64,000 nucleotides of DNA from Bacteroidetes Order II. bacterium (GCA_016788705.1 JAEUSQ010000032.1:1-64000); one strand, 5' to 3'. Counted from the first letter of the stretch, positions 9,271 to 33,887 are shown. The notes: a model not told the origin generated them from the sequence alone. Made by a program: numbers and translations.

Positions 9271-9302
9271 AAAAGCCCGCTCACCTAAGGGAGTGGGCTT
9301 TT
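9271..9302 (-). terminator. Rho-independent terminator at the end of the kinase/CsgG-like cluster
   Basis: The stem AAAAGCCCGCTC / GAGTGGGCTTTT has one mismatched position and an 8-base loop, and on the minus strand ends in CTTTTCTTT. It lies about 30 bases past the stop of the T9SS cargo gene and so closes the seven-gene minus-strand cluster. Confidence 0.8.
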
Positions 9303-9330: not shown

Positions 9331-10968
9331 TTAACGTACTTTTTGAACCGAACGTACAGCGTGGTAGTTCTTGGCCTCGAATACCAAAAAATAGGTTCCC
9401 GACGGCAGGTTTTGTGGTTGCCAAGTTATTTCGTGAGTACCTACAGGGTAGGAGGAGTCATTCACCAATACCTGCTCTCGTCCCAGCAAGTCTATGATCC
9501 GAATTTTTACCGATGATGCCTCGGCTAATTGCCAACTTAGGTTGGTGGTTTCGGAAAATGGATTGGGGTAATTGGGTAAGAGGGCTGTCGTTGTTGGGGC
9601 AATCGTTTTTGTTTCTTCATGGGCAGTGGCTTCCCATGCCTCGAGAAGGTTTTTTAAATCGTTTACTACCATAGCCGATGCCTCTTCTTCCAGTAGCATC
9701 GCTCCCAGCCGACGAATCAGTTCAGCCTGATGGTCTTCTGTGATGCGGGCTATTGCGCTGGTCTGTTGACTTCCAGTTATGCTTCGGCCATAATTTGCAA
9801 TAACTGGAAAAATATCATATACATCCACCACGCCGTCACGGTTTGCATCGGCCCTGAGCGCAGCAAGATCGGTACTACTTCCAGGATTGACGCTGAATTT
9901 TTCCCAGACCAAGGTGAGGGGAACGGGGGTTCCGGAAAAGGGGGTACGTTTCCCATAAACAGTATTACTCGTGAGCCGGGTGATGTCTGCCGGGCCTACT
10001 TGTCCATCGCCATCGGTATCCCCTGGCCAAATCGCCAGCCAAGTGCTGACCGAACCGGATGTCACCCAATCGGAGTTTAAGGAGATGCTCCCAACCGTTC
10101 TTCGTGCCCGCACCCTGAGTTCATATTGTGTCAGGTTGGGTAAATTATTTAGCAAAAGGGAAGGGGCAGCGACCAATTGTATCGGCCCCCATTCGGTTCC
10201 TGAACGACGGATTTGGACTTCAAAAACTACATTTCGGAACAAATCCCCTTGTTTCCAATCAGCCTTCAAAGCCTGATCTGGGTGTGTGGAATCGTTCGAG
10301 AGAATCAGGTCTTTTACCGGAAGGGGTGTGAGTACAAAAGTAGTTTGGCAAGCCTCGGCGCTAAAATCGGAGGTGGTGCCAAGTCTATACCCTTGTACCC
10401 GGTAACAATAGGTGGCTAATTCGTCTAAATCGGTATTGCTCCATACCGTTTTTTCCAATTCTTCGGCGATGGTTTGCCATCCGCCAGTAGGCGTTCGCCG
10501 TTGTACCCGGAAGCGATAGCTTTCAGCTTGGTTAACAGCCCACGCAATGGCAATGGTCACCGGATCGGTCAATGCGATGTTGGCCAAAATAGGAGTCCCT
10601 TCCACCTGTTTTCCGGTCAATGCACATGCCATATCGGAGGCAATAGACCTACCAGAGATACCTTCTGCGTACATTCTATAGCAATAATAAGCTCCCTTGG
10701 CCAAGCCTGTATCTATATGGCTATTGGTTTGTCCGGAGGGTCTTGCCGAGAGGATTTCCCAGTTTCCGAAATTCAACTGACGTTCTATCAAAAAAAAGGA
10801 AGTTCCTGTGCTTTCGGGCCGCCAGTTTAGCTGAATACCCGTTTCGCTTAAAGGCGTGACAACAAGGTTTGCAGGTGCTTTGGGTTGTGCCCAAGCCAAA
10901 CTCGTTATTCCTAAACTCCACAAGATGCCCAATACATGGAAGGAATATATTCGTTTTATGCGATTCAC
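9331..10968 (-). CDS. T9SS cargo protein with FN3 and dockerin-like repeats
   Basis: A 545-residue secreted protein. A signal peptide occupies about residues 1-27. Three fibronectin type III-like domains follow (about 30-120, 125-215 and 218-310). Next come two dockerin-like calcium-binding loops, 'GDTDGDGQVGPADI' (about 315-328) and 'DANRDGVVDVYDI' (about 376-388). The last 83 residues form a type IX secretion sorting domain beginning NYPNPF at 466-471 and including the 'SGTYFLVF' strand. It is therefore predicted to cross the outer membrane through the T9SS and be released or attached to the surface. It is the last gene of a cluster led by a Ser/Thr kinase. Confidence 0.88.
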   Translation of the reverse strand: MNRIKRIYSFHVLGILWSLGITSLAWAQPKAPANLVVTPLSETGIQLNWRPESTGTSFFLIERQLNFGNWEILSARPSGQTNSHIDTGLAKGAYYCYRMYAEGISGRSIASDMACALTGKQVEGTPILANIALTDPVTIAIAWAVNQAESYRFRVQRRTPTGGWQTIAEELEKTVWSNTDLDELATYCYRVQGYRLGTTSDFSAEACQTTFVLTPLPVKDLILSNDSTHPDQALKADWKQGDLFRNVVFEVQIRRSGTEWGPIQLVAAPSLLLNNLPNLTQYELRVRARRTVGSISLNSDWVTSGSVSTWLAIWPGDTDGDGQVGPADITRLTSNTVYGKRTPFSGTPVPLTLVWEKFSVNPGSSTDLAALRADANRDGVVDVYDIFPVIANYGRSITGSQQTSAIARITEDHQAELIRRLGAMLLEEEASAMVVNDLKNLLEAWEATAHEETKTIAPTTTALLPNYPNPFSETTNLSWQLAEASSVKIRIIDLLGREQVLVNDSSYPVGTHEITWQPQNLPSGTYFLVFEAKNYHAVRSVQKVR

Positions 10969-10996
10969 GGTCGTAAGGGTTCTTAAGGTTGAGTGG

Positions 10997-11803
10997 CTAC
11001 TTAATGATCACCCGTGCATCGGTGACTGCATAGGATCGGACAGTATTCGGACTGGTTAATAACTGTAATGTGCCTTGTTGAAATTTTATTTCGATGTCGG
11101 CAGGTGTATCAAGCGGGACATACAAGGTATCTAAAACAAAGGGCGCACGTTTTCCAGACGGAAAAGCCCAAGCCACATCCACACCATAACCCTGCCTCAC
11201 GGTCAAGGCATTTTTAAACCGGATGCGTGAAGGATCAATACCGCTTATGTTCATCTTACCCGCAATCGCTTTGATGAGGTCGGTGGTTCCGTCAATCATT
11301 AAGGCCATTTTTAATTCTCCGGAATTAGCTTTGACCGAAACGATAGAAGGCCCAAAGCCTACAATTGGCGTTGTGTTGTTTTCGGGGATAAAAACAGCTT
11401 GCAGATACACGGTATAGTTGTCGCGGGAGATGCGCTGTAACGTCTGACCGCGTGCGCGTGTTCGCCCATTCTGACTGTATTCCACCTGAAAAGTAAAGGT
11501 GGAGTCTAAAGGCAGTTGTAGGTCAAAAAAGACCTCGTCTTGTGTGGTATTGTCGGCTGTAATGGCCTCTTTTGGGCTATAATCCCGCCCACCTTTTGAA
11601 GTGACGGTCAATTTTACGGTCCAGATGGCTTGTGTTTTGGCATGTACCTCGCTTAGCAAAGAAGCGCCATCTAACATCCTTGGCGCAACAAATCCGATAC
11701 GTAGTTTGGGACGCACCATAGCGTCCTCTGCAACGGGATGGACATCACAACCAGAAGCCATAAACGCCAAAGCACACCAACCAATTAAAAAGAAATATTT
11801 CAT
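10997..11803 (-). CDS. hypothetical lipoprotein
   Basis: I do not recognise the family of this 268-residue protein. The N-terminus MKYFFLIGW... ends in the lipobox MASGC (Cys19), so it should be a lipoprotein. The remainder is rich in beta-strand-forming residues, with a likely immunoglobulin-like or FN3-like fold at about residues 45-135 and a second beta-rich part at about 140-268. It lies 28 bases upstream of the T9SS cargo gene and 31 bases downstream of the outer-membrane barrel gene on the same strand, so all three are probably cotranscribed. Confidence 0.75.
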   Translation of the reverse strand: MKYFFLIGWCALAFMASGCDVHPVAEDAMVRPKLRIGFVAPRMLDGASLLSEVHAKTQAIWTVKLTVTSKGGRDYSPKEAITADNTTQDEVFFDLQLPLDSTFTFQVEYSQNGRTRARGQTLQRISRDNYTVYLQAVFIPENNTTPIVGFGPSIVSVKANSGELKMALMIDGTTDLIKAIAGKMNISGIDPSRIRFKNALTVRQGYGVDVAWAFPSGKRAPFVLDTLYVPLDTPADIEIKFQQGTLQLLTSPNTVRSYAVTDARVIIK

Positions 11804-11834
11804 GTCATTATCCTGTAAGGTATCAGTGCCTCAT

Positions 11835-13028
11835 TCAAAACCGGATGGATGTCCGAAGGAAGATTTCAAAACCTTTGATGGTTCGTGCTTCGGATTTAGC
11901 ATTGATTCCATCCCCCTGTATATACCGTTGTCCAATGCTTATAGAGGCCCTTTTGCTGACGGAGAGGCTGATCGTAGCACCTTGCTCGAATACATTGCTC
12001 CGGCCCGAACCCGTTACCACCGCTGCTTCTTGTGTTCCCGGCGTTCGTATAAAACGTCCTACACCCGTTAGGGTAAGTCGAAGTTTGGGAATAACACTAT
12101 AGTCTAATGACGCAAGAGCGGTTAGACTATTGGGATTTTTGATATGGAAGATTTCGGTGTTTTCCTCGAAGGTCATGGTCTCGCCACGTAAAACGCCTTG
12201 TAAAGCAGCTGTAAATAATCCTTTCCGATGATTAAACATCTGGGTTACCAGTACCTGTGTCTGGAACTTTGGCCCAAGGCGTAAAGCCTTCACGTGGTCT
12301 ATGTATTCGTCGCCATACAGGGTTAAGGTAGGACTGATTTGGAAAAACGAAACGGGGGTTGTGTGGCTGTAGGCCATGGTCAAACTCGCTTCATAGCCAG
12401 GTCTTAGGGCTACATTTCGGTCCGCATTAATCAAGGCGGTCTCGTAAGAACCCCGATACAAAAATCCGACTGCGCCCCCAAACAACCCTTCTTCGGAGGT
12501 GTCTGTCACAAAAGAGAAGGTTCCGCCGGCGTTTAGCCCTTCGCCCAGCCGGTTTTCCCGTACCGATAAATCGGGTGCAATAAAATCAGTTACCACATCT
12601 TGCTGTTTATCGGTCAGTTTACTTACCCCTGTTGGAAGGCTAAAGGCGGTATTGACCACCATGCGCCGTTCTGCGTTTAGGGCATACCCCGCTTGGATTT
12701 TTAAATCGGAAAGACCACTTACGGTTGTCTGGGTGTTATCCGTCTGGTTTTGAAAGTTTACATAAGAGGAAGATAAACGCATTTCTAACCGATCTTTGAA
12801 CGGCAGATACAAGCCAATTGGTAAAACTGTCTGTGATATTTTGGTCGAGGCATCGCCTTCGGTGATCGTCCAGTTTTGGCTGAACAGTTGGATGGCCGTG
12901 CTATAGGGTGTACCCGGCGATATTTGGGCCGTTGCTTGCGGCAAGAGAAAACACCCAACAAGGACGGACATAAACAGGCCGAAAGCCAATCTTCCAGAGC
13001 TGTTTTCGCGGAGGCGGAGGCGCTTCAT
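11835..13028 (-). CDS. outer-membrane beta-barrel protein (MetA-pathway-like)
   Basis: A 397-residue protein with a signal peptide ending around residue 34 (ATAQ). The rest alternates short amphipathic strands with Gly/Thr/Asn turns and ends in an aromatic residue (SIRF), as expected for an outer-membrane barrel. The overall pattern ('LPIGLYLPFKDRLEMRLSSS', 'GLSDLKI..GY', 'FSLPTG') resembles the transporter-like barrels grouped with the phenol-degradation MetA-pathway family. Substrate is unknown. It is 9 bases downstream of a CsgG-like exported protein, which suggests the two act together in the envelope. Confidence 0.75.
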   Translation of the reverse strand: MKRLRLRENSSGRLAFGLFMSVLVGCFLLPQATAQISPGTPYSTAIQLFSQNWTITEGDASTKISQTVLPIGLYLPFKDRLEMRLSSSYVNFQNQTDNTQTTVSGLSDLKIQAGYALNAERRMVVNTAFSLPTGVSKLTDKQQDVVTDFIAPDLSVRENRLGEGLNAGGTFSFVTDTSEEGLFGGAVGFLYRGSYETALINADRNVALRPGYEASLTMAYSHTTPVSFFQISPTLTLYGDEYIDHVKALRLGPKFQTQVLVTQMFNHRKGLFTAALQGVLRGETMTFEENTEIFHIKNPNSLTALASLDYSVIPKLRLTLTGVGRFIRTPGTQEAAVVTGSGRSNVFEQGATISLSVSKRASISIGQRYIQGDGINAKSEARTIKGFEIFLRTSIRF

Positions 13029-13037
13029 AGGGTTGTG

Positions 13038-14486
13038 TTAATTCGATTTTGGCAACGGGGCAATCACTTGCACCCGAATAAAGGCTTGGTTGGCGGGGTT
13101 CAGCGTACCTGGCGGCTTGTTGGTGGCATCTCCCGTCTCGTTTACGTTAGATCCTATACCGGCATCTCCATCGGTGATACCCGCTGCACCTAATGACAAA
13201 AGGCCCAGTTGTGTGGCTGCATAACCGAAGTTAATGGCCTTGATCACCTTCTTATTTGATCCAGTTGCAGCAAGTGCTCCGCCGCCGCCGCCAGCAAACC
13301 CACCGAATCCAGCGGTTTGATTCAAGATGTCCGAGACATTGGTATATGATTGTAAAACCACTACCCTGGTCTGTTCCACAGCGTTCCGATCTCGTCCGGT
13401 GATGCCGATGTTTGCGTCGGAAAGAATCTGCCCGGCGGGATCCGATGTCCCCGCCTCGGCCATATCAAAGCCTTGCGAGAACATAAGGAAACGTTGTAAG
13501 TCATCGGCCACGATTGTCCCAACAGCATCGGCAAAAGCCATTCTACCATTTGTGTACTTGAAGCGTGTAATGCGCTGGATCTGATCGGCAATGGCAAAGG
13601 TCAACTCTTCTTGAAGGCTTCTTAAACCTGTGTTATTCTCGCTTGCACTTCGTGCAGGAAGTACATAGGAGGTGTCTTTAGGTACGTGTGTAACAATGGG
13701 TTGCACCATAAGTCGGCCATTTTCAGTTTTTACAAGACCGCTGATAATAAATTCCGCGCCAAGTATTTTTCCAACCGATGGCGGTGGAATCCGCCGATCC
13801 CCGCCATAAAAACGGCCAATATTGACTTCGGTAAGAATGGTGTTGAGGCGCGAGCGTTCTACGGTGCTAAAGGGTACATCGGTCAAACGGCCAAGCGAGG
13901 CAAAAACGGTTGTCAGAAATCCCGAAATCCCAAACCCAACCCGGCCTAAATCTGCCTCTTGGGTTTGATTCAAAAAGGGAAGAACCCCAATGGTAAACCG
14001 GCTTTCTTCACGATTGTAAAAATGTGCCAACCGATTTTCGTTTTGTCGGCTGATATTGGTTAGGTAGCGAATCGCTTGTTTGTCTATATGCTGTATCTGT
14101 GTACGTGCTGTTTGTGCTTCTTCGCTGGAAGGCTTAAGGGCCACAAATGCGAGATAGTCGTTTCTGGCTTCGGCAAAGGATTCTAAAGCCTCATAAGCAC
14201 GGGCACGTGAAATGAGAATCCGTCCGAATAGATCTGGGCTGCCTTTCGAAGTGCCTCGGGCACGCAAGTCGGTGGGGTCCGGTAAATCTGCGAGGGTTGC
14301 CGCCTGCACTAAGGCATCTAAGGCTTGTTGGGCCCTTCCCCGTTCGAGATGACCATCTGCTGTTTCCAGAAGGGAGCTGATCCGGGCCTCAACGCCTTGC
14401 GCCCAGAGGGGCATTTGAGCAAAGAGTGCCATAAAGAAGAGGGCTGCGAGCCAGCGCCAAAATGAATTAGGGTTTTTGTTGTTCAT
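13038..14486 (-). CDS. exported CsgG/FlgO-like protein with TPR-like N-terminus
   Basis: The chosen start (MNNKNPNSFWRWLAAL) gives 482 residues with a clean signal peptide ending near LWAQ. Another Met lies 15 bases upstream (14501), and a longer reading frame extends to 14609 but would prefix about 40 atypical residues. Residues about 35-130 look helical and TPR-like ('RAQQALDALVQAATLADL', 'AYEALESFAEARNDY'). Residues about 165-310 resemble the CsgG/FlgO fold ('GVLPFLN', 'VERSRLNTILTE', 'GAEFIISGLV'). A Gly-rich stretch and a hydrophobic C-terminal part follow. The start overlaps the preceding gene by 20 bases, indicating translational coupling. The exact role is unknown. Confidence 0.7.
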   Translation of the reverse strand: MNNKNPNSFWRWLAALFFMALFAQMPLWAQGVEARISSLLETADGHLERGRAQQALDALVQAATLADLPDPTDLRARGTSKGSPDLFGRILISRARAYEALESFAEARNDYLAFVALKPSSEEAQTARTQIQHIDKQAIRYLTNISRQNENRLAHFYNREESRFTIGVLPFLNQTQEADLGRVGFGISGFLTTVFASLGRLTDVPFSTVERSRLNTILTEVNIGRFYGGDRRIPPPSVGKILGAEFIISGLVKTENGRLMVQPIVTHVPKDTSYVLPARSASENNTGLRSLQEELTFAIADQIQRITRFKYTNGRMAFADAVGTIVADDLQRFLMFSQGFDMAEAGTSDPAGQILSDANIGITGRDRNAVEQTRVVVLQSYTNVSDILNQTAGFGGFAGGGGGALAATGSNKKVIKAINFGYAATQLGLLSLGAAGITDGDAGIGSNVNETGDATNKPPGTLNPANQAFIRVQVIAPLPKSN

Positions 14487-15339
14487 CTGGTTCTTCGACA
14501 TTGGATTCAAGGATGCGCACGAGGGTCTCTCGCATCTGCTGTGTCTCCAAAATCTCCCGATCCAACCAAACTGAACCACAACGCCGGGCTTTGCTTTGTT
14601 CAAACGCAATAAGCGCTTTGTCTAACTTTTGAACGGCTGTTGTGGCATCGTCCATTACAAAAGCTGCTTCGCGCTCTGCTGCTGCTTGCATAATCCATTG
14701 AAGGCCCCCTTTTTTACAAGGTAATTGTGCCGAAAATACAGGGGTAGCTTCTGGTCGTTTGAGTTTGTTGGCCACCTCAGACGCAAAAGCCTGTAAAAAA
14801 GCAGGAACCCGCTCTATGGAGAGCCTCGGGAGATTTAAATGTCGTTGTGCAAGAATCGCGCCATTTTTTACTGAAAACATCCTAACTTCTAAATGCGCAA
14901 AACTTGTTCGGTTTCGCATAAAGTATTGTCCCATAATGATATAGTCAGCCCCTTCAAAACTTAATGGGATAGATTGGCTTTCTGGACCAAAACGACTGAT
15001 CTGTGCCAATTGTAGCACCTCTTGCATCTCTACGCGGTCGCTGGTGCGGATGGTAGGATAAGCGCTCAGATAGCTCGCCAGTAATAACCGTAACCCGCTG
15101 GCATATACCAAATCTGAATCTTTCTGGAGCAAGCCAGTAAATTGGAAGGGCCATATGGCAATCCGTACCGTATCGGGAACTGCTTCTGCCGCCTGAAGGG
15201 GAGGAGTCGCCTGAAGACTATCGGGTGCTATGGGCAACACGGGAATATCTTGGGCCTGGACGAAGCCCCAAAACAAAAAACATAAAGCGCCCCACCCAAA
15301 AAAAATGCGAATGGAGCGCTTGAAGCATAACGAAGACAT
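14467..15339 (-). CDS. exported CsgG/FlgO-like protein
   Basis: With the ATG at 15339 the protein has 290 residues and a signal peptide (MSSLCFKRSIRIFF...FVQAQ). An ATG at 15363 would add eight residues. The mature part contains a CsgG-like pattern: 'RIAIWPFQFTGLL', then 'TSDRVEMQEVLQLAQISRFG' and 'GADYIIMGQYF', matching the order in its downstream neighbour. A helical C-terminal region follows (about 200-290). It lies 39 bases after the gene at 15379-16776 and overlaps the next gene. It may be a partner or divergent paralogue of the protein encoded at 13038-14486. Confidence 0.7.
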   Translation of the reverse strand: MSSLCFKRSIRIFFGWGALCFLFWGFVQAQDIPVLPIAPDSLQATPPLQAAEAVPDTVRIAIWPFQFTGLLQKDSDLVYASGLRLLLASYLSAYPTIRTSDRVEMQEVLQLAQISRFGPESQSIPLSFEGADYIIMGQYFMRNRTSFAHLEVRMFSVKNGAILAQRHLNLPRLSIERVPAFLQAFASEVANKLKRPEATPVFSAQLPCKKGGLQWIMQAAAEREAAFVMDDATTAVQKLDKALIAFEQSKARRCGSVWLDREILETQQMRETLVRILESNVEEPDEQQKP

Positions 15340-15378
15340 AGGCTTAACAATACGGAGCAACAAGCGCTTGTTGACGAA

Positions 15379-16776
15379 TCAAAGATCTGCTTTCACGTTT
15401 AATACGACATGATTAAACGAAACTTGCTGAACCTCGGTTTTATAGTTCTTGCTCAGGTTATAAAAACCCTCCCGACGGATCACGTCTGCCAGATCGCCGT
15501 CTTGTGGACGATAACGGATGTAAATTTGCGTCGTCCCGTCTGCCACAAAACGTGGGTTGTCCAAGGGATCGTTCAGCGCAAAGGTGGAGAGTTGTACCAA
15601 CATCCGGCGGAAATCTTCATAATTTAAATTACCCTTTAACTCAATCAAATGTATGGCTCCGTTTAGGGTGCGGCTGTTCCATTCCGAGATACAGGTTTGT
15701 TTGATGTGGGAGGCGAGAGCGGTTGTTAGGTTTTCGAGGGCCGAAAAAGCGGCCTCACGTTGCATCATCTTGCCTTTACCATCTCTTTTCTCGATTTGAG
15801 ACCCAAACTCATAGTTGCTGCCATCTGCCCACCGCATCGTGAGGTTGGAAATGGCCCATCCACCCCATCCCATTCCCATTCCGATTCGCTCGGCTGTCGC
15901 ATCCACATTGCCTCTGACCAAAATGTGCGCTTCGGTATTGGGCATGGTTTCGTCTATCACGGTAAAACCAGCTTCTTGCAGGGCTTTTTTAATACCCGTT
16001 AAGGCTACACGGCTCTGACTTACAACCCCTTCTATGGTTTCGGTAAGGTCTAAACGTACATAGGGCTTCTCCATGTCGAACAATACGCCACTTTGATTGA
16101 CCGATGAAAGGACACTTTTCCGATCTATCAGATTCGCAGCAGAAACCGTAACGCCCGATGAATCACGAATCATTTCTTCTATACGACTTTTACTTGCATG
16201 GCGAACTGAAAGAATGGCCTCGGCCATATCGGTATCCGAGAGAATGGTAGCAAAGCGCTCTGCCGAAAAATACTGCCCTACATAAGAACGGACGGCATTT
16301 AATTCGGCACTCCGAAGGGCATCTTCGGCACTCTCCGCCGCGCCCGACGAGGACGCCATTTGTAGGTCCCCTTGGTTCAATTGCTGACGGTTATACTCGA
16401 AACGTTTGCGGATGAGCAAAGGCGGAAATGCGGCTTCATCCATGGCCCGAAAGGGGTCTGCAAGAAGTGAAATCACAAAATTACGGTCCGCTTCCTCAAA
16501 AGAACCCGATTGGTTCATCATAAATGAAACCACATTCACAGCACCGATCAACATGTATTTTTCAGCTTTACAGGCGGGTGTCAGCGTATCATCTTTTAGC
16601 TCGGCGAGTGCTGCCCGTGTTTCCTCAAACTCGGAATAGGCGTAGTGCTGGAAGGCCATTTTGAGCGCTTGGCACTTGAACGCCTTCGGTGCAACGTTAG
16701 GGGTACTTTGAGCACCTACCAGCGAGAAAAGCCCGAAGAAAAAGAGCAAGAACACACTGAAGAGGCGGTTTTTCAT
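15379..16776 (-). CDS. exported protein of unknown function, possibly CsgG/FlgT-like
   Basis: The ATG at 16776 gives 465 residues with a signal peptide (MKNRLFSVFLLFFFGLFSLVGAQ). The open frame runs further upstream into the end of the kinase gene, but those residues do not look like a leader. The N-terminal part (about 30-110) is helical and TPR-like ('MAFQHYAYSEFEETRAALAEL'). The middle contains 'SRVALTGIKKALQEAGFTVI' and 'AHILVRGNVDA', which recall the substrate-free lobes of CsgG/FlgT/LPP20-type proteins. No catalytic motif is seen. It sits 52 bases downstream of the kinase gene and 39 bases upstream of a CsgG-like gene on the same strand. Confidence 0.65.
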   Translation of the reverse strand: MKNRLFSVFLLFFFGLFSLVGAQSTPNVAPKAFKCQALKMAFQHYAYSEFEETRAALAELKDDTLTPACKAEKYMLIGAVNVVSFMMNQSGSFEEADRNFVISLLADPFRAMDEAAFPPLLIRKRFEYNRQQLNQGDLQMASSSGAAESAEDALRSAELNAVRSYVGQYFSAERFATILSDTDMAEAILSVRHASKSRIEEMIRDSSGVTVSAANLIDRKSVLSSVNQSGVLFDMEKPYVRLDLTETIEGVVSQSRVALTGIKKALQEAGFTVIDETMPNTEAHILVRGNVDATAERIGMGMGWGGWAISNLTMRWADGSNYEFGSQIEKRDGKGKMMQREAAFSALENLTTALASHIKQTCISEWNSRTLNGAIHLIELKGNLNYEDFRRMLVQLSTFALNDPLDNPRFVADGTTQIYIRYRPQDGDLADVIRREGFYNLSKNYKTEVQQVSFNHVVLNVKADL

Positions 16777-16828
16777 TGAGGTATATGGTTTAAGGCCCGT
16801 TGCAGACAGCGACCTTTTGATGACGAAT

Positions 16829-18502
16829 TTATTGACAACTTTGGGTCCAAAATATTTTGGAAGACCTATTGCCGGTGAGGACTTCTCGGCCTGTACATAC
16901 TTTTCCGGCAAACTCGCCATTCCCGACGATACTCCACTCTACAGTTTGACCGATATAATATTCAAAAGGTTTAACCATCCCCATAGAGGGGTTGTAGCTT
17001 TTGTGGTTAATTACCGATTTGCTCGCATCATAATTTACGTTTGGGACAAAGGTCACCATTACTTTTTCAGGCGTTTGGGGAGAAGCATTTGTTTGAGGGC
17101 TTGAATGGATAGGACCTTTGGCTGGCTGTCCAGCGTTTGTGCCGGAGTCGAGGACGGGCGGGTTTGTTGGGGCAATGCGTACCAGATTACCAGGATCCAT
17201 GCGGGGTGTAGTGGCCGGGTTGCCTTGAGGTACATTCCTATGGGCAAGCAGGGCCGTATCGTTTGAGGCTTGATCTGGGCGCAATGGATTCATCGAAGTG
17301 GATTTTGGCTCCCCCGTCTGGGTATTGTTTAACTCAGACGGGGAGTTGCCAAAAAAACGGTTTGCCATCATCGCGCTGCCAAAACTGGCCCCCATTATTA
17401 GCAATCCAAGTCCAAGCCATCGGAGAATCTTTTTGCCTTGTGGGGTTTCTTTTTCTGTTAGCCTGCTGGCACCTTGATCTGGCTCCAAAGGCATCGTTAC
17501 TTCCATCGTCATGGATTCTGTTTCGGCGATAGCGGCCTGCTCAGGTAGTGCATAGGATGGGACACGATGTTGTTGAAGGGCCAACAAATCGGCTTTTAAC
17601 TCCACCGCTGTTTGGTAGCGATCCTCTAGTTCCACTTGTAGGCACTTTAGCAAAACGGCCTGCATTTCATTCGAGATATCTACAGGCAAGCCACTGTCCT
17701 TAAAAGCTGGTAGTTGCCCTAACGTCTCCCAACGTTGGATGAGTGTCCGCTGCCGTACTTGCTCGAAGTGCATACCAAAAGGGTATGTACGGGTAAGCAT
17801 CCGTACCATGAGCACTCCCATGCTCCATAAGTCGGATTGTGGGCAAAGTGCGTGACGCCCTGCAAAGTGCTCTGGCGACATATACGGCGCTGTACCAACA
17901 GCTACATTCCCCACTTCGCTCATTACAGAAACCACATCCGTTCGGGTATCTATTTCCTTGGCAATCCCAAAGTCTATCCAGATCGGATTCAGGCTGTCGT
18001 CTAACATCACATTGTCTGGTTTAATATCACAATGTAAAATAGCCCGCTGATGAGCAAACTGAAGTGCATCTACCAAGCCAAGCGCAATGTTGACCGTTTG
18101 GTCTGCGGTCAATTGGGTGTGATGCACCAAACTCGTAAGGGTTCCGCCAGACATAAGCGGTAATACACAAAATGGACGGCCAGTTGTATTGGTCTTAGTA
18201 ACGTATTCACCATGTTCTAAGACATTGATAATGTGTATGTTTCCTGCCAACCCCCTTAATGTGGACACTTCCTTTTCGAAAAGTCGAACACGACGATCGT
18301 ACTGCTCCGCATCGCCTTGGAACCGGAATAGTTTAATTACATAACGATAGGCTTCCGTAGAACTTGGGGGAGCATCAGAGGTTGGATAACAACCATAAAT
18401 ATCAGCAGTTCCGCCAGAAGCCAACCATTGCCCCACGACAAACCGACCCACACACGTCCCTGGTGATAACCTATCGGAAAGATTGAGTTGTATTGTACTC
18501 AT
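16829..18502 (-). CDS. transmembrane Ser/Thr protein kinase (PknB/Stk-like, non-RD)
   Basis: A 557-residue membrane kinase. The kinase domain (about 20-310) has a Gly-rich loop ASGGTADIYG at 28-37, the catalytic Lys57 (VIK), Glu78, the catalytic loop HCDIKPDN at 157-164, DFG at 177-179 and GTAPYMSPE at 203-211. The Arg of the usual HRD is Cys here, making it a non-RD kinase. One transmembrane helix lies at about 358-378, then a Pro/Thr/Asn-rich linker, then a small extracytoplasmic domain (about 465-557) with two Cys near the end that could form a disulfide. It heads the cluster of exported proteins downstream and may report envelope status to the cytoplasm or control their use. Confidence 0.9.
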   Translation of the reverse strand: MSTIQLNLSDRLSPGTCVGRFVVGQWLASGGTADIYGCYPTSDAPPSSTEAYRYVIKLFRFQGDAEQYDRRVRLFEKEVSTLRGLAGNIHIINVLEHGEYVTKTNTTGRPFCVLPLMSGGTLTSLVHHTQLTADQTVNIALGLVDALQFAHQRAILHCDIKPDNVMLDDSLNPIWIDFGIAKEIDTRTDVVSVMSEVGNVAVGTAPYMSPEHFAGRHALCPQSDLWSMGVLMVRMLTRTYPFGMHFEQVRQRTLIQRWETLGQLPAFKDSGLPVDISNEMQAVLLKCLQVELEDRYQTAVELKADLLALQQHRVPSYALPEQAAIAETESMTMEVTMPLEPDQGASRLTEKETPQGKKILRWLGLGLLIMGASFGSAMMANRFFGNSPSELNNTQTGEPKSTSMNPLRPDQASNDTALLAHRNVPQGNPATTPRMDPGNLVRIAPTNPPVLDSGTNAGQPAKGPIHSSPQTNASPQTPEKVMVTFVPNVNYDASKSVINHKSYNPSMGMVKPFEYYIGQTVEWSIVGNGEFAGKVCTGREVLTGNRSSKIFWTQSCQ

Positions 18503-32084: not shown

Positions 32085-33887
32085 ATGGCTTTCTTTTTTC
32101 GTAAAAAACTTACGCCTTCAGAAGTCGAGCAGAAGGCAGCTCTTCCATTCAACGATTCCCCCAGCGAATTGGAGTCGTTGCGCTGGTTGCTTATGGGCAA
32201 AGAGCGTGCAGAACTCCGAAAATTGGAGGAACGAGTAACGGAATTTGAACACCGAGGGATTACGTCGGACCAAGTGGGTGACTTGTTGCCTGATAGTATC
32301 GTAAAGCGAGCACAGACAGATGATCGGTTGGTTAGGAGTCTTACGCCTGTGGTGGAAGAAGCAATCCGAGAATCTATTTCGCAAAACCGGTTTCGGATCG
32401 CAGATATCTTATTCCCTTCTATGGGGCCAGCCATCCGCAAGTCTATTGCTCAGGCATTACGGGCATTGGGAGAAACCAATCGGCCTGAACACGAGCAATA
32501 CCGTAGCTTCTTTTCGATTAAAGGGCTAAAATGGCGTTGGGAGGCCTTCCGACAGGGCAGGAGTTTTGACGAGGTGTTGCTGGCAAAAATATTGCTGTAT
32601 CGAGTAGAGCATCTTTTCCTGATTCATCACGAAAGTGGCCTTTTGCTTCAGGAAGTACGGGCCAGCAATGTACCAGCCATGGAAGCGGACATGTTTTCTG
32701 GGATGCTGACTGCATTGCGAGATTTTGCCAAAGACTCCTTGGGACGAAAAGAAGGCCTTAGTACGTTGGAATACGAGGGGTTTACGATTGTGATGGAAGA
32801 TGGCCCCAAAGCCTTTATTGCCGCAGTAGTGAAAGGACATCCGCCTGAGAGCCTGCGTACCTTGTTTCAGGAAGCTCTAGAGAATGTACACTTCGAGCAA
32901 CAATTGGCGTTCCGTTCATTTAATGGAGATACTGCGGTCTTTGAGCCGTCCAAACAGTATTTAGAGACGTGTCTGGATGCCTCTTATCGTTCGACGCGCC
33001 AAAGTGTTAGTCCAGCTAAATTGGAGTTGGCACTAAAGTGGGGTGCCTGTCTCCTGCTCGTATCTGCAATCGCCTATTTGATTGCCTACGATACCACTCG
33101 CTGGAATCGCTTTATCCTCGAAATGCGCCGAACACCCGGATATATGATTACTGAGGCCGAGAAAGATTGGTTTAGTGCCTCTGGTTTGGGGCGCTATCGG
33201 CTACGAGGGATTAAGGACCCGTTGGCAGCAGATGTGGCCGCCAAAAACATGACGGGTCTTGGACTGAACCCGGATCGGCTGGATGTTGATTGGACGCCTT
33301 TCACCTCGTTAGAAAAACCAATCTTATTACGGCGGTTGGAGAAACGCCTCAATCCACCTATACGGCTTAAACTCCGGCTTACAGATGACTTGGTATTACA
33401 ACCAATTGGTGTTGCCAATGCAATGTGGGTGAATCAAGCCCAAGTCATCCTTCCGGCTTTTGATGGCGTAAATGGTTTGGATACGCAGTACATCTCTTCG
33501 CCCGAACAGTATTTGTATCAGTATATGCTGCCCGAGCTATCAAAGGGTGGGGTGTTTTTTGATTGGGGAAAGTCGTTGTTGAGTCCCTTTATGCTGGGTG
33601 CAACGGCTGCCAAAATCAAAGAAATCTTTCATGTTGCAGAAGAAAATAACTTGCCTTATCCAACCATCGTCCTCGAAGGAAGAACAGATGGCCCACACTC
33701 CGTTACCAACCAACTGCTAAGCGTGCAGCGGGCTGAGTCCGTCAAGAAAATATTGGTTGAACAATACCAAATCCCGGCAATTAGGCTGTCCACCATCGGA
33801 TATGGTTCTTCCCGTCCGGTAAAGCCCTTTTACTCGGGCCAGGATACCGATCAGGCCAACCGAAGTGTTACAATCGCCGTTCGATAA
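32085..33887 (+). CDS. inner-membrane OmpA-family protein with longin/roadblock-like cytoplasmic domain
   Basis: A 600-residue protein with unusual topology. Residues 1-310 are cytoplasmic and include 'LFLIHHESGLLLQEV' (177-191), 'ADMFSGMLTALRDFAKDSLG' (201-220) and 'YEGFTIVMEDGPKAFIAAVVKG' (230-251), a pattern reminiscent of roadblock/longin GTPase-partner domains. One transmembrane helix lies at about 317-335. The C-terminal 100 residues are an OmpA/MotB peptidoglycan-binding domain ('LEGRTDGPHS', 'LLSVQRAESVKKILVEQ', 'RLSTIGYGSSRP'). It could link the cell wall to a cytoplasmic GTPase or to the coiled-coil protein encoded just upstream. The OmpA part is certain; the rest is inferred. Confidence 0.8.
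   Translation: MAFFFRKKLTPSEVEQKAALPFNDSPSELESLRWLLMGKERAELRKLEERVTEFEHRGITSDQVGDLLPDSIVKRAQTDDRLVRSLTPVVEEAIRESISQNRFRIADILFPSMGPAIRKSIAQALRALGETNRPEHEQYRSFFSIKGLKWRWEAFRQGRSFDEVLLAKILLYRVEHLFLIHHESGLLLQEVRASNVPAMEADMFSGMLTALRDFAKDSLGRKEGLSTLEYEGFTIVMEDGPKAFIAAVVKGHPPESLRTLFQEALENVHFEQQLAFRSFNGDTAVFEPSKQYLETCLDASYRSTRQSVSPAKLELALKWGACLLLVSAIAYLIAYDTTRWNRFILEMRRTPGYMITEAEKDWFSASGLGRYRLRGIKDPLAADVAAKNMTGLGLNPDRLDVDWTPFTSLEKPILLRRLEKRLNPPIRLKLRLTDDLVLQPIGVANAMWVNQAQVILPAFDGVNGLDTQYISSPEQYLYQYMLPELSKGGVFFDWGKSLLSPFMLGATAAKIKEIFHVAEENNLPYPTIVLEGRTDGPHSVTNQLLSVQRAESVKKILVEQYQIPAIRLSTIGYGSSRPVKPFYSGQDTDQANRSVTIAVR

Follow-up and report, generated by a model that had tools for sequence, protein, structure and literature searches.

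On the minus strand of the window, by which we mean the whole stretch of 64,000 nucleotides analysed here, seven open reading frames follow one another from position 18502 down to 9331 and encode, in this order, a kinase, exported proteins of 465, 290 and 482 aa, an outer-membrane barrel, a lipoprotein and a T9SS cargo with FN3 domains (Table 1). The intergenic gaps, taken in the same order, are 52, 39, -20, 9, 31 and 28, in agreement with the earlier note, which had described seven co-directed minus-strand genes with gaps of 9-52 and one overlap. A relA/spoT gene lies divergently on the 5' side of the kinase gene (18794, plus strand). The leaders and the terminator found only at the far end also stand as first described: type-I signals can be read from the sequence of the 465-, 290- and 482-aa proteins and of the barrel, and the sole terminator of the unit is a hairpin at its far end (~9301-9274), beyond which a separate PPIase gene follows.

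Table 1. Coordinates of the seven genes and of the terminator in the window
Feature	Position	Strand	Remarks
Transmembrane Ser/Thr kinase, 557 aa	16829..18502	-	Pfam Pkinase 1.9e-32; kinase domain ~52-298
465-aa exported protein	15379..16776	-	Helical N-terminal half, alpha/beta C-terminal half; genus-only
290-aa exported protein	14467..15339	-	TolB-N/CsgG/LpoB-type domain ~55-165 and C-terminal helices
482-aa exported protein	13038..14486	-	Weak TPR, CsgG/TolB-N domain and a further region
397-aa outer-membrane beta-barrel-type protein	11835..13028	-	Counterpart of the cassette barrel
268-aa lipoprotein	10997..11803	-	Lipobox ASGC in the sequence; no Pfam/NCBIfam family
T9SS type A cargo	9331..10968	-	FN3 domains, weak dockerin-like region, C-terminal sorting domain
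Intrinsic terminator hairpin with U tail	9274..9301	-	Folding -20 kcal/mol, z -3.0; closes the unit

Two congeners, one of them Bacteroidetes bacterium UBA2364 (Bacteroidota Order II in the NCBI taxonomy), keep relA/spoT, the seven genes and the PPIase gene in the same order, with protein identities of 70-97%. In a three-species comparison the NG86 dN/dS of the unit genes is 0.045-0.12, with dS saturated; for the 482-aa gene (dN 0.10) the ratio is not computable. The seven genes are thus one conserved unit, as had been proposed at first reading, and are under strong purifying selection, far beyond chance. The unit holds no curlin, glycosyltransferase or polymer gene and no curli, Pel or flagellar gene. 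HMM searches for Tss, PP2C and FHA gave no match in positions 1-26000 of the window, nor was any FHA match found on the contig that carries the unit (C32). Elsewhere in the window, positions 32085-33887 encode a protein of 600 aa whose C-terminus is OmpA-like and which has a single hydrophobic segment at its centre; the gene directly before it encodes a 168-aa coiled-coil-like protein.

Predicted proteins of the unit

The kinase has a single, borderline transmembrane segment (~363-383, below the 1.6 threshold), and its C-terminal tail, predicted to be exported, is conserved in the congeners. Its active site reads HCD (non-RD) in all three congeners and HRD in all kinases of the cassette described below; the catalytic K, D and N and the DFG residues are retained. 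PADLOC kinase matches (PD-T4-6 and mad6) were dropped as evidence for a defence function, being generic kinase-domain matches. The genome as a whole (G000, 4.3 Mb) has 17 Pkinase matches, 16 of them above the cut-off (C18, C50, C57, C32 and others), and 11 FHA matches.

Neither the 465- and 290-aa proteins nor the barrel and the lipoprotein belong to a Pfam or NCBIfam family. A Pfam CsgG match was found on the 482-aa protein only, besides one weak TPR match; it lies below the cut-off (E 0.0011, 18.8 bits against 20.8) and is partial, residues 161-252 covering positions 7-98 of a profile of 210. The 290- and 482-aa proteins carry type-I-like signal peptides without a lipobox. The CsgG curli channel is therefore not matched, by score or by lipoprotein signal. 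The 465-aa protein was found in 3 of 296 sampled genomes of the phylum, all of one genus, and at one other locus among 84,980 species, in a search that may omit records of its own genome; no relative was found in viral contigs. The 290-aa protein is likewise confined to the genus.

The AlphaFold (AF2) models were of low quality, with pLDDT 40 (465-aa protein) and 46, because only the rows of the window and of one other locus (L017) were used and the alignments were shallow, and no periplasmic fold was predicted with confidence for proteins of the unit. Foldseek matched the poor 290-aa model best to the CadC periplasmic domain, TolB, PelC, GNA1162, LpoB and CsgG, with TM-scores (about 0.2) that are low and prove nothing alone, in line with the profile result given below. 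With the 465-aa model Foldseek returned incoherent matches only. A search for relatives of solved structure found none for the barrel, the 482-aa or the 465-aa protein, and the cassette families gave TPR-only matches. Of the CsgG-like nature that the earlier note had seen in the exported proteins, what stands is an apparent TolB-N/LpoB/PelC-type domain with added helices, and not CsgG itself. Compared with CsgG, PelC, LpoB, FlgO and TolB-N proteins, the likeness lies in the weak CsgG match of the 482-aa protein and the Foldseek matches of the 290-aa protein, whereas the versions in the unit are fused to TPR-like helices, score below the Pfam cut-offs and lack a lipobox.

The barrel matches neither PorP/SprF nor another known barrel family in Pfam/NCBIfam; seven cassette-type barrel members gave only DUF6850 and Phenol_MetA_deg, one each. 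Among the loci examined, an HMM of the lipoprotein matched those of the three congeners only. The last protein has the features of a T9SS type A cargo (Por_Secre_tail 5e-10, fn3 5e-8), its sorting domain scoring above the cut-off (TIGR04183, 33.7 bits against 23), and its secretion is plausible since the sortase PorU is encoded in the genome (1031 bits).

A kinase/envelope cassette in the order and its link to T6SS loci

A profile of the 482-aa protein built from three congeners was searched against 114 genomes of the order. The five best matches outside the genus (G353, G039, G020, G006 and G339) lie without exception in loci where TPR/CsgG protein, barrel and T9SS cargo are encoded together, three of the five also having a kinase within the stretch read; two weaker matches, to TPR only, were also found in the order. 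The barrel profile, also of three sequences, gave nine matches in the order beyond its own orthologues, six of them in cassettes and three adjoining T9SS cargo genes on fragmentary contigs; in all nine cases the preceding gene belongs to a cassette or encodes a T9SS cargo. Two independent searches thus land in the same cassette, whose usual order is kinase, CsgG/TPR protein (CSG), TPR/CsgG protein (TPRC), T9SS cargo and barrel, the last two adjoining in nearly all complete cassettes.

With a related protein of the same genome (contig C18) as query, CSG was detected in 48 of the 114 genomes, strongly in 31. The earlier note held that homologues lying mostly apart from each other and from the kinase would speak against a unit; they occur together, since a kinase lies directly upstream of CSG on the same strand in 30 of 32 fetched loci (of the other two, L098 starts too close to tell, and the 9 kb read of L096 contain no kinase). 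The cassette was seen in two settings. In the first, TssC, an FHA-SLT protein and PP2C precede the kinase, in several cases together with the series TagH-like FHA protein, TssJ, K, L and M. In the second, the order is FHA, kinase, CSG, TPRC, a very long T9SS protein and barrel, and the stretches read contain no Tss gene. A Tss gene was present within the stretch read in 15 of the 32 loci.

The genome of the window has a locus of the first setting on contig C18, with VipB/TssC, FHA+SLT, PP2C, kinase, CsgG protein, TPR protein, barrel, FHA, TssJ, TssK, DotU/TssL and IcmF/TssM, the genes past TssM being unrelated; TssK occurs on this contig only. The FHA protein of the T6SS locus matches TagH/VI_FHA at 4.7e-21, below the cut-off of that family. 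Across the order TssK and strong CSG are found together in 20 genomes, TssK only in 4, CSG only in 11 and neither in 79 (Fisher 6e-11, uncorrected for phylogeny). The C18 locus (L023, G000:C18:20000-38000), with TssC, J, K, L and M, a kinase, PP2C and two FHA proteins, is of T6SSi type; the host belongs to the Bacteroidota, for which the type on record is T6SSiii with TssNQOPR.

In T6SS loci a fusion of FHA, one transmembrane segment and an SLT lytic transglycosylase is encoded between TssC and PP2C (L023:1575-4766, L101:13871-15628 and L108:4915-6693), the SLT domain being assigned by Pfam for L023 and L101 and by a family HMM for L108. In such a protein the phospho-reader and the enzyme that cuts the wall would lie on opposite sides of the membrane. 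The fusion is a candidate for a phospho-controlled wall-opening enzyme in T6SS assembly. Cassette T9SS cargos range from ~550 to ~2,500 aa (L102:12190-17094, L094:12334-19197, L113:11363-18949), and that of L102 is a string of HYDIN/ASH-type Ig repeats. Related genes are not confined to the order (they are present in f26, f29 and f41), and some have a kinase beside them. Outside the order, the loci L200-L207 have TPRC and barrel and mostly also T9SS cargo genes, and the stretches read from the f41 genomes (L203, L204, L205 and L207) showed no kinase.

In the open-access papers searched we found no name for the cassette, nothing on CsgG together with kinase, PEGA or FlgO, and nothing on T6SS in these taxa beyond the paper on the Bacteroidota T6SSiii. 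That no named system was known for this composition still holds for these papers, but the composition is not unique to the unit, since the cassette is widespread in the order.

Relationship of the unit to the cassette

For profile-profile comparison with hhalign, the cassette families were rebuilt without any window-type sequence. The 482-aa protein then matched the TPR435 (TPRC) family at E 4.8e-15 and the CsgG373 (CSG) family at 5.8e-12, and the barrel matched the cassette barrel family at 3e-13; against the smaller alignment A10 the value for the 482-aa protein was weaker, 2e-11. For the 290-aa protein the E-value was 3e-6 against CsgG373 (0.0003 for the domain alone, 0.002 with the smaller alignment A9) and 1.2e-5 against TPRC, while cross-controls (barrel against CSG, 482-aa protein against barrel) gave 0.08-0.3. 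Homology to the cassette is, on these profiles, well supported for the 482-aa CsgG-domain protein and the barrel and moderately so for the 290-aa protein. For the 465-aa protein the comparison is suggestive only: its N-terminus (36-131) aligns with the TPR region of CsgG373 at E 0.003-0.04, the alignment ending in similar LL..(D/E)P...PP.L.....Y/F..R residues, and among 321 reading frames it was the best non-member against CSG, at E 0.06; the possible likeness lies in its helical N-terminal half.

In gene order, KIN-[465+290]-[482]-BAR of the unit corresponds to KIN-CSG-TPRC-(T9)-BAR of the cassette; a barrel before the T9SS cargo, as in the unit, also occurs in L018 and L202. Besides a T9SS cargo and a cassette-family barrel, the unit has a CsgG/TPR pair 3' of the kinase on the same strand. 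Where the cassette has its first CsgG/TPR protein, the unit has the 465- and 290-aa proteins; if the 465-aa link is true, these two would substitute for CSG, and the whole unit would be collinear with the cassette. They may represent a split of the first CsgG/TPR protein. Kinase, CsgG-domain protein, barrel and T9SS cargo, in collinear order, are thus common to both, whereas the unit differs in the two proteins replacing the first CsgG/TPR protein, in its additional lipoprotein, in a non-RD kinase with no FHA or PP2C neighbour and in its very divergent sequence.

The weak point is the kinase itself. The 28 cassette kinases form one clade in the tree (97), while the kinase of the unit, whose branch measures 5 changes per site, neither joins this clade nor is rejected from it (AU p 0.64); with so long a branch its descent from cassette kinases is not demonstrable. 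The unit is best read as a strongly diverged, stand-alone and T6SS-free relative of a widespread and apparently undescribed kinase/envelope cassette.

Discussion

We propose, with a probability of about 0.5, that the unit performs trans-envelope Ser/Thr-kinase signalling, as a diverged, T6SS-independent relative of the cassette working like the T6SS threonine-phosphorylation pathway. In Pseudomonas and Serratia, exported partners (TagQRST, or RtkS binding to its periplasmic domain) switch PpkA, which phosphorylates Fha and is opposed by PppA (PMC6082577). The T6SS-linked cassette follows the same logic, with kinase and PP2C beside FHA and with exported and outer-membrane partners directly 3' of the kinase. 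What the unit shares with this pathway is a transmembrane Ser/Thr kinase with a predicted exported tail (the transmembrane segment being borderline) beside periplasmic and outer-membrane proteins; it is the related cassette, not the unit, that adjoins FHA, PP2C and TssC/J/K/L/M genes. The unit lies outside any T6SS cluster, lacks FHA, PP2C and Tss neighbours, and its putative sensors are CsgG/TolB-N and TPR proteins, a barrel and a T9SS protein instead of TagQRST or RtkS. The membrane complex TssNQOPR of the Bacteroidota T6SSiii is a further case of envelope proteins tied to a T6SS (PMC10781749). The T6SS encoded in this genome, with TssJ, L and M, is of T6SSi type, and the unit stands outside its locus.

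Beyond homology, every mechanistic step is one that we infer. The T9SS protein and the barrel would reside on or in the outer membrane, and the CsgG/TolB-N and TPR proteins would carry information on the condition of the surface or outer membrane through the periplasm. Contact of these relay proteins with the exported tail may switch the cytoplasmic kinase domain, which would phosphorylate FHA-bound or other targets encoded elsewhere. The logic would be that of PpkA with its TagQRST or RtkS input, though sensor and output would differ. Since the related cassette often sits inside T6SS loci, the unit is probably a sensor that links the cell surface to an intracellular phosphorylation signal. 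The AU p of 0.64 for the kinase, the E of 0.003-0.06 for the 465-aa link and the contig free of FHA count against our reading, as do the first 26 kb of the window, free of PP2C and Tss matches, and the low confidence of the predicted periplasmic folds.

In the export or surface-attachment apparatus put forward in the earlier note, CsgG/PelC-like proteins and the barrel would together form a channel or collar for the export or anchoring of the T9SS cargo or of a surface polymer, its assembly being regulated by the kinase. Although the fold matched by the poor 290-aa model is common to CsgG, PelC and LpoB, and the genes for barrel and T9SS cargo adjoin in almost every complete cassette, we consider this explanation unlikely: the CsgG match covers only part of the domain and stays below the cut-off, no glycosyltransferase, curlin or polymer gene is present in the unit, and the 290- and 482-aa proteins lack the lipobox, unlike CsgG and PelC, which are lipoproteins. 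We found nothing that demonstrates such an apparatus.

A unit specific to the genus, newly put together from common parts (kinase, TPR, T9SS cargo) and functionally unconnected with the T6SS-linked cassette, would account for the restriction of the 465-aa protein and the lipoprotein to the genus, for a kinase neither joining nor rejected from the cassette clade, and for T9SS sorting domains being numerous in the genome; it is nevertheless improbable, as independent matches link two rare families (482-aa protein and barrel) to the cassette, with the order collinear. Equally hard to credit, if not more so, is a second input to the cell's own T6SS, in which the kinase would phosphorylate in trans the FHA proteins of the C18 locus, as this locus, although it has TagH-like FHA, FHA-SLT, PP2C and TssC, J, K, L and M, already has a kinase of its own, and with 17 kinase-domain and 11 FHA matches in the genome other partners are as likely.

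Returning to trans-envelope signalling, we tentatively suggest, at odds somewhat below even, that unit and cassette represent an undescribed class of phospho-signalling systems, in which TolB-N/CsgG-TPR proteins would read a surface T9SS protein and a barrel and switch a Ser/Thr kinase, one branch being wired to T6SS assembly and the unit being a T6SS-free branch with an output of its own.

How surface or outer-membrane information reaches cytoplasmic kinases is poorly known in Bacteroidota-type cells. In a single gene order the cassette brings together a kinase, CsgG/TolB-N proteins, an outer-membrane barrel, T9SS surface proteins and, where it lies in a T6SS locus, an FHA-transglycosylase bound to the membrane. 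This makes it a concrete candidate, open to testing, for what triggers the T6SS in this lineage, and the unit, with much the same sensor parts but without a T6SS, offers a natural comparison.
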